Positions 371-4,792 of a stretch of 5,095 bases of DNA are shown one piece after another. The notes under the pieces are model-generated. The model was not told the DNA's origin and searched no databases. It saw nothing but the letters and a program-made list of their open reading frames with translations. The stretch is from NCBI GenBank assembly GCA_021797955.1, contig JAJZYV010000173.1, forward strand, positions 1-5,095, written 5' to 3'. The position numbers were made by a program, and so were the translations under genes. The DNA is from Thermoplasmata archaeon. GTDB lineage: Archaea > Thermoplasmatota > Thermoplasmata > Thermoplasmatales > Thermoplasmataceae. The number at the start of each line of letters is the position of its first letter. The stretch's first letter is position 1.

Positions 371-547
371 TACTCAAGTGTGAGAGAATCTGAAATTTCG
401 AAGTTGATTATCACAGAATTAGCATGTTGTTTTTGTTGAAACCCGCTTTATCCGGCGATAAACCATTGATCCCCCTTAATAATCTAAACATTGGAGGAAA
501 ATTGAGGTTTCCCAAAATATTTATACAAATGGCTTTTATGTAATAAT
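371..547. other. Intergenic gap before the CARF-PIN-like gene
   Basis: This stretch of 177 bases has no convincing ORF. It holds a short T-rich stretch at 426-437 (longest run five T), about 60 bases after the preceding stop, which could be a weak U-tract terminator for the upstream gene. At its right end it carries the TATA element of the next gene. No CRISPR repeat or tRNA was seen. Confidence 0.5.
514..526 (+). promoter_or_regulatory. Archaeal TATA box, leaderless promoter of the CARF-PIN-like gene
   Basis: The sequence AAAATATTTATAC matches the archaeal box A, with an A-rich tract at its left edge where the TFB recognition element would sit. Its centre is about 26 bases before the ATG at 548, the usual distance from TATA centre to transcription start in archaea. 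The message should therefore begin at or within a few bases of the ATG. This fits the lack of a Shine-Dalgarno sequence in the bases just upstream of that ATG. Confidence 0.7.
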
Positions 548-1918
548 ATGATCAAAAAGGGAATTTTTTTAATTGGAACATCAAATGACATAATGGAATC
601 ATCTTTTTCTTCAATACTGAGGGTTTTGGAGTCATTTCAAATAAATCAGGTAGTATTGCTGTACTCTTCATTTGCAAAAAGATATGCAGAAAAACTTAAG
701 ACAACTCTTGAGAAATTGTTTCCTAACGGCACATTAAGCGTTGGAATCGAAGAAATAAATGAAATTAGTTACAGAAATCAATTTGATGCTGCTTTTGATG
801 AAGAGACTCTGCTATGTCCCACTTCCGGTTCCAGATTCTATACAATTGTATCAACAGATATTGGAAAAGCTAAAGGGGCAACACTTGTCCACGTTATGTT
901 TCCCTATGGTCCATGGAGGGAATTGTATTACCCGTTTGTACCAAGATTTCTACAACAGATAGTCGTCTTATCTGGAGACACAAAACCTCTAAGTGAGATT
1001 AAGGATATTTTTGATGAGAATAATTCGAGGCTGCTTGAAGAGGACTGGAAGGACAAAATCAAAGGGAAGAATATAACAAAAAGAGTTGGGATGAGTTCAT
1101 TCAGATATAATAAACTGAACAAGAAAAATTTTGTTGAAAATGGAGAGGAAAATATTTTCGATTTGGGAATTGACAAGTACGGAGAAATAATATCAAATGA
1201 TACATCTAACACAATAATAAACCTCAGAATTCTTGACCAGTTTAAAAAGTATAATTTGTCAATATCAATCAATGACGAAAACAGGACAGATAGAGATTTT
1301 CCAAATTCAACAGAATTCAGAAAAAATTTTATTTCAACCACGTTCGGAATAAAGGGGATAAATATTTCAGATGACAGCAAACTGTCACCCTTTGATATTT
1401 TTGGCATCCTGGGATACTTGGATATAGACTGCATAAGTTTGGGAAATCAGAGAAATTCATTAGAAGAAATTTCGGAACAGTCAAAGGGAATTATTATTGA
1501 TACGAACATGATCTATCTGGGGATAAATCTCTACAAAGAAGCGAAAATCATGGTTCCTTACTGTGCGTATATAGAAATAGCGAATAAAAGAACAGAAATG
1601 ATGAAGGGTCATAAAGACGAGTTAACGCATATATTTGCAGATATACTCTGGGACGCTTTGAATGAATTGCTGGAATCAAATCCAATTGTCCCAACCGAGA
1701 CATTTTTCTGTGACGGCGTGATTCCAATGATGGATCCCTTAATTATAAGAAATTGCACACTTTTGACGAACGACGAGGGAGCTTATCAGCATTGGATGGG
1801 AATATTTTCTGATTGGGTGAGGGTTGCAAAAGCCAAAATAAGCAAGACGAGCAGTGTGGCTAAGGTTGTATTCGCATTGTTTCTTACATCGTCTGTGCTG
1901 CAGGAAGGAATAAGTTAA
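548..1918 (+). CDS. CARF-like sensor fused to a PIN-type nuclease; putative CRISPR ancillary ribonuclease
   Basis: This is a 456-residue protein. Residues 1-140 look like a CARF Rossmann domain: strand 1 IFLIGTS (6-12) is followed by a helix, strand 2 is QVVLLYSS (34-41), and LLCPTSGSR (88-96) sits where CARF proteins carry the Gly/Ser/Thr ligand loop. A GPWRELYYPFVPR segment (121-133) follows. Residues 145-310 are charged and unassigned. Residues 314-430 fit a PIN nuclease: Asp318 in IIIDTN, Glu343 in AYIEIANK, Asp396 in MDPLII and Asp409 in LLTNDE, giving the four-acid metal site in the expected order. CARF domains bind cyclic oligoadenylates made by Cas10 in type III CRISPR, and PIN domains cut RNA. 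By inference, this is a signal-activated ribonuclease acting in the cytoplasm. The ATG at 548 is the only reasonable start: an in-frame TGA lies at 503-505 and the TATA spacing agrees. The gene stands alone, with no cas neighbour in view. The PIN call is firmer than the CARF call. Confidence 0.62.
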   Translation: MIKKGIFLIGTSNDIMESSFSSILRVLESFQINQVVLLYSSFAKRYAEKLKTTLEKLFPNGTLSVGIEEINEISYRNQFDAAFDEETLLCPTSGSRFYTIVSTDIGKAKGATLVHVMFPYGPWRELYYPFVPRFLQQIVVLSGDTKPLSEIKDIFDENNSRLLEEDWKDKIKGKNITKRVGMSSFRYNKLNKKNFVENGEENIFDLGIDKYGEIISNDTSNTIINLRILDQFKKYNLSISINDENRTDRDFPNSTEFRKNFISTTFGIKGINISDDSKLSPFDIFGILGYLDIDCISLGNQRNSLEEISEQSKGIIIDTNMIYLGINLYKEAKIMVPYCAYIEIANKRTEMMKGHKDELTHIFADILWDALNELLESNPIVPTETFFCDGVIPMMDPLIIRNCTLLTNDEGAYQHWMGIFSDWVRVAKAKISKTSSVAKVVFALFLTSSVLQEGIS

Positions 1919-2313
1919 TCAGGCGGACTGTTTGAATCCGATTGCCCTGTTTCACTTTTTTTTCCGATGTTAATGAATTCATAAACACTTGAAAATAACA
2001 AAGCTGAAAATGCGCAAATCAATCCAGATATCAGTGGATACATAAACAGGACAAGAAACTGAGGGAGTCCTATTATGGATGAAATTATTCCCGCAATTTT
2101 AAGGTCACCGGTAAGGCTGTACATAAGGTATACAGACAGAAATGATCCAAACCCCTCCAGGAATCCGAAAATAAATGCGAATCTTTTCCTTAACATCAGT
2201 AAAAGAAAGCCCGAAATTATCAGATAATAAGCGTCTTTCAGGAAAAAAGCAATGAGGATTGATAAAGGAATAGACAGTAAAGACAGATAGAATACTCTAC
2301 GGTTCATATTCAA
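1915..2313 (-). CDS. Small multi-pass membrane protein, function unknown
   Basis: I do not recognise a family. The 132-residue product has four or five hydrophobic segments at roughly residues 7-25, 27-41, 45-67, 72-92 and 93-116. A basic LRKR loop lies after the second segment, and a hydrophilic tail (GKKSETGQSDSNSPPD) ends the protein. It sits immediately downstream of the acylase gene and overlaps it by 17 bases, so co-transcription and translational coupling are likely. A role alongside the exported acylase, such as a membrane partner or an exporter of its product, is possible but only inferred from position. The start is uncertain: TTG at 2313 lies six bases after the GGAGG core of a strong Shine-Dalgarno sequence, and an in-frame ATG at 2307 lies twelve bases after it. 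Its stop codon overlaps the stop of the convergent + strand gene. Confidence 0.8.
   Translation of the reverse strand: MNMNRRVFYLSLLSIPLSILIAFFLKDAYYLIISGFLLLMLRKRFAFIFGFLEGFGSFLSVYLMYSLTGDLKIAGIISSIIGLPQFLVLFMYPLISGLICAFSALLFSSVYEFINIGKKSETGQSDSNSPPD
1956..1963 (+). terminator. Candidate U-tract terminator for the CARF-PIN-like gene
   Basis: A run of eight T on the + strand begins 38 bases after the TAA of the upstream gene. Archaeal RNA polymerase terminates at short U-tracts without needing a hairpin, and I see no strong stem here. The run lies inside the oppositely oriented membrane-protein gene, where it encodes a lysine pair near the C-terminus. It may therefore be only coding sequence. 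Confidence 0.35.
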
Positions 2314-4792
2314 TAGTCACCTCCGTTGGAAGTCCCTGCATCGGATAATATTGATGGTTTAACCAGTGACTCAACTGATTATCAAACCAGTAGCTTTCAA
2401 CATTCTCGCTAGGGCCCCCTGGAAATACCCCGTAAAATGTTCCCGTGGCCGGACTTGCAATTGTTCGGAGAGAAGATCCGATTGACACGCAGGGTAAGGG
2501 ATACTCTAATAACCTTGGCACTGATCCAACGCTGACTGTATGTCTACCTCCCCAAATTGATATTGGGCCAATTCCCAGTGCTGGAATACCTGTAAGACTA
2601 GCAATTTCAACCTTGTGGACACTCCCCCAGGCCCAGTTACTGACATTTCCTAATTTCGAATCCATAAAATTAATCGCGATTACAAAAGCTTCTTGCATCG
2701 TTTTACTGAAATTGCCATTAAACCATGAGGATGTTGGATCTTCCTTAGCCATTTCAATAGCAGTATTTACATAAACACATGGCGTGAACTGATAAATTCC
2801 ATTTTCTTTCAAAACTTTATCATAAGTCAAATTATAGAACGCGGCTGTTACATATTGGTATACGGTTGGATTCTCCATGCCTGGCCAGAATGTGTAATTC
2901 CATGTTTCCAGTAATTTTAGGGCCATTTTCTGAGAATAGTTAAGATTCATGGAACCAGTGATGGCCTTCACTATTAACGGATTATACTGGGTGGCCCAGT
3001 AGTCAGAAACATTCGATTGAAGTGCCATCATGTCTTTAAAATTCATTTTTGTATGATTCTGCAGGAAATGATCTATTGTCTTCGCTCTGCCACCTGTGGC
3101 CCAGTAAGAACCTATGAATGGATATGGATAGTTCTTCCCAACTGTTGGCTGATTTGGGGCAAACATGTATCCCCTTGACGGGTTTACTGCCTGTGGGAGA
3201 TACTTAAACGGAACAAATCCTGTTTCCCTGTATTTTGAGTTTGATCCATTTAAAAGAGATACCGAACCTACTACCTGCAGGCTCTTACCGTCTGGAAGAG
3301 TTTCATTTATTAAGGGATAGCCACCTGCAGTAATATAACCGGAGTGATGAAGCGAAACTAGTGCGAAATTTTGTGGCGGTGCCGGTCCCCAGTATTTCAA
3401 GGCGTTCAGCATTTGTGAATAGTTATTTGACTGATCAAGCATTATTTCTGCAATCAAATCAGTGCTTGGTTGATTCTCATCCCAGTTCATACTGATCCCC
3501 AGAGTACTGTTCCTTGATATTATAGGACCATTGTTTGTCGAATAAACAGTGTAAGTTCTACCGAGTTGGGTGAAATTGCATGTTGACATGGCAATGTATT
3601 TTCCATTGTATAAATAGGAATTACCTTTCAGGGATTCCAAAAAGTCATTGGCAGAATTTCCTTCCGGCGTTGTCAAACCAAAAGAAGTATGTTTTGTGTG
3701 GCCTATTAGAATCCCTAGCAATCCTGCAAGACCCCAGCCTGTAACATTAAACGACGGATCAACTAATTGATACTCAATCCAGAGAGAGGGAGCCAGCAGT
3801 GGTAAATGAGGATCATTTGCCAGCATTGGAGAACCATTAGAAGAATAATTGGATGCAATAATCCAACTATTGCTACCAACAGGAGATCCAGTGTTGTGCG
3901 ATCCTGGCAGATTGTATGGGTCGGAAATATTCATACATGCTTCTTTCAGCAGTGTGGTTAATGTGCTTAGTTTCTTTGAACTCACACCAGTTGCCCATTG
4001 GGAAAACCAATCCTGGGACCAAACATAGCTGGAAGAAATGCCCTGTTCAGCTAAATTGTAACCATTTACTGTTCCGTCTCCTGGAATCATGGTAACATTC
4101 TCCGTGTAGTAAGGATAATAGGGCCAAATCTGGCTGTAATTTGAATATCCAAGTGAATTTACAAAAATGTCAGATTGAAGTACATTCGTGGAACCTATGG
4201 CAAGTGACCATGCCATATATTGCTGCCATACCAAGCTATCATAAACTGTCCATTTAAATGGTTTAACGCCTAACAGATGAAATCCCAGTATATCAGAAAC
4301 AGAAGCTGAATTATTTATGTAGGCGTTTACACCCTGTGAGTACCAAAGCAAATAATCATAATATTTAGTATAATTATGTTCAATATCAGACTGTAACCTT
4401 TCAGCATTTCGGGTTAATCCTATCAGTCTCATCGTGTAATCTGATTGAAGACCAGAACTTCCAATAAATTTAGATAAGTTTCCAGCAGCAACTGTAGCCT
4501 GAAGTTCCATTTGAAACAGTCTCTGACATGCGCTATAATAACCTTGGGAGTAAAACAGATCGTGATTGTTCTTGGCCTGAATATGAACCATTCCAGACGA
4601 ATCTATAGTTAGCGAAACGCTGTTTTCCAGTCCGGGAACTATGTAAGAACCAGATGTAAAGTTATTACTTGAAGAACTTTGAAAAACACCAGTAGAGGGG
4701 TTTAAAATACCCAGAGAAGTGGAAATATATGAAAGACTTCCTACCAGTATGAAAGAAATTACAATAATTACAGCTAAAAACTTCCTTTTCAT
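2297..4792 (-). CDS. Secreted penicillin amidase family acylase (S45, Ntn-hydrolase)
   Basis: This 831-residue precursor is of normal length for the penicillin amidase family, which hydrolyses amide bonds of acylated compounds such as beta-lactams, acyl-homoserine lactones or N-acyl amino acids. The true substrate is unknown. Residues 5-25 form a signal or anchor helix with no lipobox Cys, followed by a Ser/Asn-rich linker. Family landmarks follow in order: DLFYSQGYYSACQRLFQMEL (78-97), GVNAYI (154-159), GSNSW (306-310), LANDPHL (324-330), NPSRGYMFAPNQ (537-548), GGRA (567-570) and a FPGGPSENVESYWFDNQ tail (790-806). Self-cleavage should occur between Gly306 and Ser307, exposing Ser307 as the N-terminal nucleophile of a 525-residue beta chain. 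Asn547 is a candidate oxyanion-hole residue. About 22 N-X-S/T sequons suggest heavy glycosylation outside the cell. The ATG at 4790-4792 is followed directly by the basic start of the signal sequence and lacks a Shine-Dalgarno. It is the first gene of a two-gene operon. Confidence 0.93.
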   Translation of the reverse strand: MKRKFLAVIIVISFILVGSLSYISTSLGILNPSTGVFQSSSSNNFTSGSYIVPGLENSVSLTIDSSGMVHIQAKNNHDLFYSQGYYSACQRLFQMELQATVAAGNLSKFIGSSGLQSDYTMRLIGLTRNAERLQSDIEHNYTKYYDYLLWYSQGVNAYINNSASVSDILGFHLLGVKPFKWTVYDSLVWQQYMAWSLAIGSTNVLQSDIFVNSLGYSNYSQIWPYYPYYTENVTMIPGDGTVNGYNLAEQGISSSYVWSQDWFSQWATGVSSKKLSTLTTLLKEACMNISDPYNLPGSHNTGSPVGSNSWIIASNYSSNGSPMLANDPHLPLLAPSLWIEYQLVDPSFNVTGWGLAGLLGILIGHTKHTSFGLTTPEGNSANDFLESLKGNSYLYNGKYIAMSTCNFTQLGRTYTVYSTNNGPIISRNSTLGISMNWDENQPSTDLIAEIMLDQSNNYSQMLNALKYWGPAPPQNFALVSLHHSGYITAGGYPLINETLPDGKSLQVVGSVSLLNGSNSKYRETGFVPFKYLPQAVNPSRGYMFAPNQPTVGKNYPYPFIGSYWATGGRAKTIDHFLQNHTKMNFKDMMALQSNVSDYWATQYNPLIVKAITGSMNLNYSQKMALKLLETWNYTFWPGMENPTVYQYVTAAFYNLTYDKVLKENGIYQFTPCVYVNTAIEMAKEDPTSSWFNGNFSKTMQEAFVIAINFMDSKLGNVSNWAWGSVHKVEIASLTGIPALGIGPISIWGGRHTVSVGSVPRLLEYPLPCVSIGSSLRTIASPATGTFYGVFPGGPSENVESYWFDNQLSHWLNHQYYPMQGLPTEVTIEYEP
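2317..2324 (-). promoter_or_regulatory. Strong Shine-Dalgarno site for the membrane-protein gene, inside the acylase gene
   Basis: Read on the - strand this is GGAGGTGA, a perfect match to the archaeal anti-Shine-Dalgarno sequence. It lies within the last ten codons of the acylase gene (the Thr-Glu-Val-Thr region). It leaves three bases before the TTG at 2313 and nine before the ATG at 2307, so it supports translation of the downstream gene but does not settle which codon is used. It is the only strong Shine-Dalgarno sequence seen at a gene start in the window. Confidence 0.75.

Follow-up and report, generated by a model that had tools for sequence, protein, structure and literature searches.

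Domains and conserved residues of the CARF–PIN protein

On the plus strand of a 5,095-base contig of a Thermoplasmata archaeon (JAJZYV010000173.1; hereafter the window, meaning the whole stretch of DNA analysed), positions 548–1918 form a complete open reading frame (ORF) that starts with ATG and encodes a 456-residue protein, with a CARF domain at its N-terminus and a PIN-like domain at its C-terminus (Table 1). The PADLOC model CARF_m3--CARF_PIN matches residues 9–444 of 456 (profile positions 8–368 of 397; E = 3.6e-47), and all ten sequences in an alignment of the window protein with nine relatives (A3; 24–44% identity to the window protein) match three PADLOC models: PDLC01983, PDLC01984 (CARF_m3--CARF_PIN) and PDLC01182 (CARF+PIN). 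Pfam, NCBIfam and PDB sequence searches with the protein returned no match. The AlphaFold2 model has two domains (predicted local distance difference test, pLDDT, 86.5); in structure comparison its Rossmann-like N-terminal domain matches CARF proteins, these matches being cyclic oligoadenylate (cOA) binders and ring nucleases. The best structural match is Sulfolobus islandicus SiRe_0806 (PDB 9jxw, 9jxx with cyclic tetra-adenylate, cA4), which aligns with the model across both domains (328 residues, 11–12% identity, root-mean-square deviation 5 Å, TM-score 0.42–0.45, no sequence-profile match) and is known here from the structure alignment and record titles, where its C-terminal domain is not named. 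The PADLOC match, the good-confidence two-domain model and purifying selection in close relatives (below) together argue that the ORF is not a chance one; an antisense ORF at 928–1434 was judged spurious by eye, being contained in the conserved CARF–PIN gene.

Table 1 Features of the window and the basis on which each was placed.
Feature	Positions	Strand	Basis
CARF–PIN protein	548..1918	+	ORF listing, PADLOC match, alignment, structure model
CARF (Rossmann-like sensor) domain, residues 1–145	548..982	+	
PTSGSR ligand-loop motif (putative), residues 91–96	818..835	+	Alignment A3, sequence check
Middle region, residues 146–305: two helices, small beta meander, helices	983..1462	+	Structure model
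Predicted PIN nuclease domain, residues 306–456	1463..1915	+	PADLOC PIN-containing models, comparison with 17 PIN domains
Asp318, first PIN acid (IIDTN)	1499..1501	+	Invariant; on PIN consensus acid
Glu343, second PIN acid	1574..1576	+	Invariant; on PIN consensus Glu
Asp389, extra invariant acid (CD motif)	1712..1714	+	Alignment A3
Asp396, third PIN acid	1733..1735	+	Invariant; on PIN consensus Asp
Asp409, fourth PIN acid (TND)	1772..1774	+	Invariant; on PIN consensus T-x-D
TATA-like box, ~25–26 bases before ATG	517..527	+	Read by eye
Small hydrophobic protein, convergent with CARF–PIN gene; neighbour	1915..2313	-	ORF listing, relatives' stretches; no Pfam match above cut-off
Penicillin amidase family protein; neighbour	2297..4792	-	PF01804, E 6.4e-143

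Eight residues named in the two domains are invariant in all ten aligned sequences: P91, T92, G94 and S95 in the CARF part, and Asp318, Glu343, Asp396 and Asp409 in the PIN part. Within the PTSGSR stretch S93 and R96 vary, leaving the pattern PT[SA]GS in 10 of 10 sequences; by alignment and structure model it comes after strand 87–91, and we take this loop, following the fourth strand, to be the CARF ligand loop. His115 and most of the YPFVPR stretch ending at Arg133 are also invariant. Compared with a profile of 17 PIN domains, the PIN part scored E = 4.5e-4 (two controls, E = 0.49 and 0.54), and the four acids fell on consensus acids in D-E-D-D order. Asp389, seven residues ahead of Asp396, is a fifth invariant acid outside the usual four-acid PIN set.

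CARF sensors are fused to nucleases in Csm6/Csx1 (CARF–HEPN) and in Can1/Can2/Card1 (CARF–PD-(D/E)XK). The CARF parts of these effectors match that of the window protein structurally, whereas PIN replaces HEPN or PD-(D/E)XK and, unlike in those systems, the CARF–PIN gene lies outside a cas locus and the intact carriers tested have no Cas10 match. The architecture itself is already catalogued in PADLOC, by sequence; domain order is the same as in the CARF_m3--CARF_PIN and CARF+PIN entries, the profile match is nearly full length and no architectural difference was seen, and the window protein, judged by these matches, adds a member. A CARF–PIN fusion in an acidophile-like archaeon had been proposed in a sequence-only reading, which placed PTSGSR at residues 91–96, named the same four acids and stated that surveys list such fusions. 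The fusion is borne out by the PADLOC match, the conserved acids, the model and the likeness to SiRe_0806; the positions of motif and acids were correct, the structure comparison proposed there gave a CARF-like N-terminus, and the architecture is catalogued, as that reading had stated. Its profile check came out mixed, in that the PADLOC PIN models match and the four acids fit the consensus, but no Pfam PIN model does. A passage of the 2014 CARF paper associates two CARF families with PIN (PMC4012209). By title we found no functional study of CARF–PIN proteins in a literature search whose coverage mostly excludes subscription papers, and the whole word 'PIN' is absent from the text of PMC12409355, PMC12830947 and PMC9704534.

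Selection and distribution among relatives

Used as query, the window protein matched eight protein clusters (E ≤ 0.001), one of them the near-identical P0001; two further clusters were reached, P0009 through a profile search and P0013 through a P0009 query, and each of these searches scored ~8,000 candidates. Apart from P0001, the nearest relative among the candidates scored has 44% identity to the window protein. Five relatives' loci (L001–L005) come from Ferroplasma acidarmanus Fer1 and four Thermoplasmata metagenome-assembled genomes (MAGs). In the order to which Fer1 belongs, a match was found in 7 of 117 genomes: six have open frames (G001–G005 and G055) and one, G098, has a stop-containing fragment that lies on its contig 1 as two pieces, each with a stop (L018:7063-7610). 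Of 389 genomes sampled from the phylum, the PADLOC model matched four, three with intact copies and G098 with its broken one; it matched none of the 14 controls. Mobile carriage was considered and rejected: 45 stretches of viral contigs fitted a pattern, none of which was confirmed as a CARF–PIN relative, and none was matched in plasmids.

Comparison of close relatives shows purifying selection on the gene, most clearly on its PIN part. Between Fer1 and G055, 34.0 synonymous changes over 286.7 sites and 32.0 non-synonymous changes over 1111.3 sites give a ratio of non-synonymous to synonymous rates (dN/dS) of 0.23 (Fisher P on rounded counts, 9e-9 for the whole gene and 4e-5 for PIN), or 0.35 for CARF, 0.24 for the middle region and 0.10 for PIN, with domains cut at identical residue numbers in each protein and borders therefore approximate. 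The ratio is 0.08–0.09 overall and 0.04 in PIN for L001–L005 and L004–L005 (here as pairs), and 0.11 for L001–L004 (CARF 0.086, PIN 0.095); these three pairs share sequences. Comparisons of the window gene with Fer1 and with L003 are near saturation (whole-gene dS 2.6 and 1.9; against L003, CARF 0.22 and PIN 0.22). In all four close pairs dN was lowest in PIN, as was dN/dS in every pair but L001–L004; in five of the six pairs compared, the middle region had a higher dN/dS than either of the other two parts. The low PIN ratio argues that the nuclease part is kept. This bears on one alternative, that the ligand-gated protein is mainly a ring nuclease that destroys the messenger, its PIN part being inactive or regulatory. 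We consider this very improbable, given the low PIN rates, although three of the four pairs share sequences and in L001–L004 CARF has the lower ratio, given that all PIN acids are invariant, and given that no Cas10 was found that would make a ring to destroy.

Messenger synthases and genomic context

Cas10 (PF22335) was detected in 6 of the 117 genomes of the order (G039, G207, G219, G232, G161 and G098) and in none of the six intact CARF–PIN carriers, two of which, Fer1 and G055, are single contigs (1.94 and 1.83 Mb); the sole genome on both lists, G098, holds the decayed copy. As a guide to sensitivity, PF22335 matched 5 and TIGR02578 7 of 14 control genomes. The zero overlap indicates that Cas10 is not needed for the gene to persist, but it is not evidence of avoidance, because chance alone would tend to give it too (P = 0.72). 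Purifying selection between Fer1 and G055, both without a Cas10 match, likewise argues that the gene persists without Cas10. Among the seven carriers, Csm1 (TIGR02578), RAMPs (PF03787) and mCpol (PF18182) each matched one genome, always G098, where the mCpol match falls within Cas10. The decay of CARF–PIN in G098, the only carrier with a type III Cas10 (Csm1-type), is the reverse of what is expected of a type III effector, in a single case. The sequence-only reading had the protein switched on by the CRISPR second messenger and proposed a search for cas10; in the relatives that could be tested this lacks support, with Cas10 among the carriers confined to the genome of the decayed copy and no cas gene recognised in the neighbourhoods scanned. 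Its alternative, a stand-alone defence switch, may hold.

Other synthases were sought with one model each. No intact carrier matched mCpol, four of the six genomes being drafts. SMODS matched five of the seven carriers (four of the six intact), two above the cut-off, but these were rejected as CD-NTases: each of the five proteins scores above the curated TIGR03671 cut-off as an archaeal CCA tRNA nucleotidyltransferase. The results thus point to absence of CD-NTase and mCpol from the intact carriers, by one model each and with four of six genomes drafts. Archaeal CCA-adding enzymes (L034–L038) match SMODS/CBASS cyclase models at E values of ~7e-4 to 2e-7, an easy false positive when CBASS is sought in archaea. 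In the complete Ferroplasma acidarmanus genome no Cas10, RAMP, mCpol or CD-NTase was detected.

The main rival explanation is an ordinary type III effector, in which Cas10 supplies the cA4, or other cOA, that turns on the PIN RNase. The tested carriers would then have lost type III recently, or their Cas10 was unassembled or missed, and the window host would have type III elsewhere. It is favoured by the cA4-bound structure of SiRe_0806, by the Csm1-type Cas10 beside a CARF–PIN remnant in G098, and by passages of a 2025 CRISPR classification that place PIN RNases among cOA-activated effectors and name III-A the most abundant subtype in Thermoplasmatota (PMC12669027); a 2024 survey reports that among archaeal effectors Csx1 dominates, and that none activated by cA3 or cA6 occurs in the genomes of archaea (PMC11229360). 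We nonetheless consider it unlikely, because no intact carrier, including the two single-contig genomes, has a Cas10 match, the gene is decayed in the sole genome that has one, and Fer1 and G055 keep it under purifying selection.

Cas1, sought in five carriers (G055 and G098 left out), was found only in Fer1, in two places. At these loci, ten proteins best match Cas3, Cas5, Cas6, Cas7 and Cas8 models, those for Cas7 and Cas8 being of type I-B; the Cas6 proteins have a further, weaker match to a III-A Cas6 model. Beside one locus is a repeat array with 14 regularly spaced copies. By these model matches Fer1 has two type I-B CRISPR systems. By eye, transposase genes of equal length and with the same first residues lie at L002:8655-9704, just upstream of the Fer1 CARF–PIN gene (a DDE transposase by scan), and at L015:1375-2424, adjoining the cas1-cas2 end of an I-B locus; in G055 (L017) no transposase was seen immediately ahead of the CARF–PIN gene. 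A second pair of equal-length genes with the same first residues, in opposite orientation (L016:7764-8822 and 17649-18707, the former inside the second I-B locus, before cas1), are perhaps copies of one mobile element.

None of ten neighbours scanned in L002, L003 and L005 was recognised as a cas gene. Eight encode a glycosyltransferase, a transposase, a TPR protein, TFIIB, an MBL-fold protein, a cytosine/purine-type permease, ScpB and PurD; of the other two, one gave a weak Gar1 match below cut-off and one had no match. This context bears on a further alternative, that the CARF domain binds RNA ends with 2',3'-cyclic phosphate, from damaged tRNA, and the PIN domain cuts more RNA or clears damaged RNA in a stress response. 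According to a passage of PMC7790460, the CARF domain of RtcR has a ligand other than cOA and senses broken tRNA, although RtcR is an AAA+ transcription activator and CARF–PIN a predicted nuclease. Such a sensor would account for function without Cas10 and sits well with identified neighbours that are mainly housekeeping rather than defence genes, but we consider it improbable because no RNA-repair gene was seen among the ten scanned neighbours and the CARF part is closest in structure to cOA binders and ring nucleases.

Pfam and NCBIfam recognised no cas gene in the window; there was no tRNA, no Rfam match at gathering score and no CRISPR array, just short repeats in two or three copies, and the ORF end at 2–370 has no Pfam or NCBIfam match. 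The window's penicillin amidase shares 75% identity with its counterparts in G095 and G240 and 74% with the one in G243; none of these three is among the seven CARF–PIN-matching genomes. The amidase and small hydrophobic protein genes are kept as a pair in five relatives (G095, G240, G243, G253 and G247), in whose stretches no relative of the CARF–PIN protein or of the ORF end at 2–370 was found (E 1e-3). Gene order at CARF–PIN thus differs from that of relatives, and the window copy is probably an accessory gene. AT-rich TTTATA-type stretches stand at a like distance upstream in six sequences (the window and L001–L005, by eye), and the TATA-like box suggests that the gene is read alone from its own promoter into a nearly leaderless mRNA. 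A bacterial promoter scan, not meant for archaea, found 11 sites where shuffled sequences gave 7.8 ± 3.2, and was set aside.

A predicted nucleotide-gated ribonuclease and its signal

We favour, at a probability of roughly one half, a nucleotide-gated PIN ribonuclease whose messenger comes from a source other than a resident Cas10. A dimer of the CARF domain would bind a small nucleotide, most likely a cyclic or cyclic-phosphate-ended oligonucleotide, and would act through the middle region to switch on the PIN part, a putative metal-dependent endoribonuclease with its predicted site at Asp318, Glu343, Asp396 and Asp409. In this Thermoplasmatales group the switch would be independent of a resident type III CRISPR Cas10, the signal being either a cyclic oligonucleotide from another enzyme or RNA ends with a cyclic phosphate, like the ligand of the CARF domain in RtcR. 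The protein may serve as a stand-alone RNase in stress or defence, its gene being transcribed singly from a promoter of its own.

Several points weigh against this reading. The best structural relative was crystallized with cA4, the type III messenger, which by analogy keeps cOA-type ligands possible. Beyond the best two rows, both SiRe_0806, the VIA-align structure list covers the N-terminal part only; the PIN part has no Pfam PIN or PDB sequence match, its profile comparison had a probability of 33%, and modelled alone (five sequences) it did not fold (pLDDT 48.3). The zero overlap with Cas10 is what chance would lead one to expect, absence of Cas10 from the four intact carriers that are draft MAGs is weak evidence, the Cas10 test covers relatives' genomes with the window host outside it, and genomic context covers the relatives other than P0007–P0009 and P0013.

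CARF effectors are usually regarded as subordinate to Cas10, yet in the complete genome of Ferroplasma acidarmanus a CARF–PIN gene is under selection alongside two I-B systems, with no messenger synthase detected. Tentatively, these archaea would hold a CARF-gated RNase in genomes without Cas10, CD-NTase or mCpol, answering an undescribed nucleotide signal from another enzyme or from RNA damage, on a CARF branch separate from type III CRISPR. We caution that a CARF nuclease should not be labelled a type III effector by default, and the Fer1 case offers a sharp, cheap test for CARF ligands beyond type III CRISPR in archaea.
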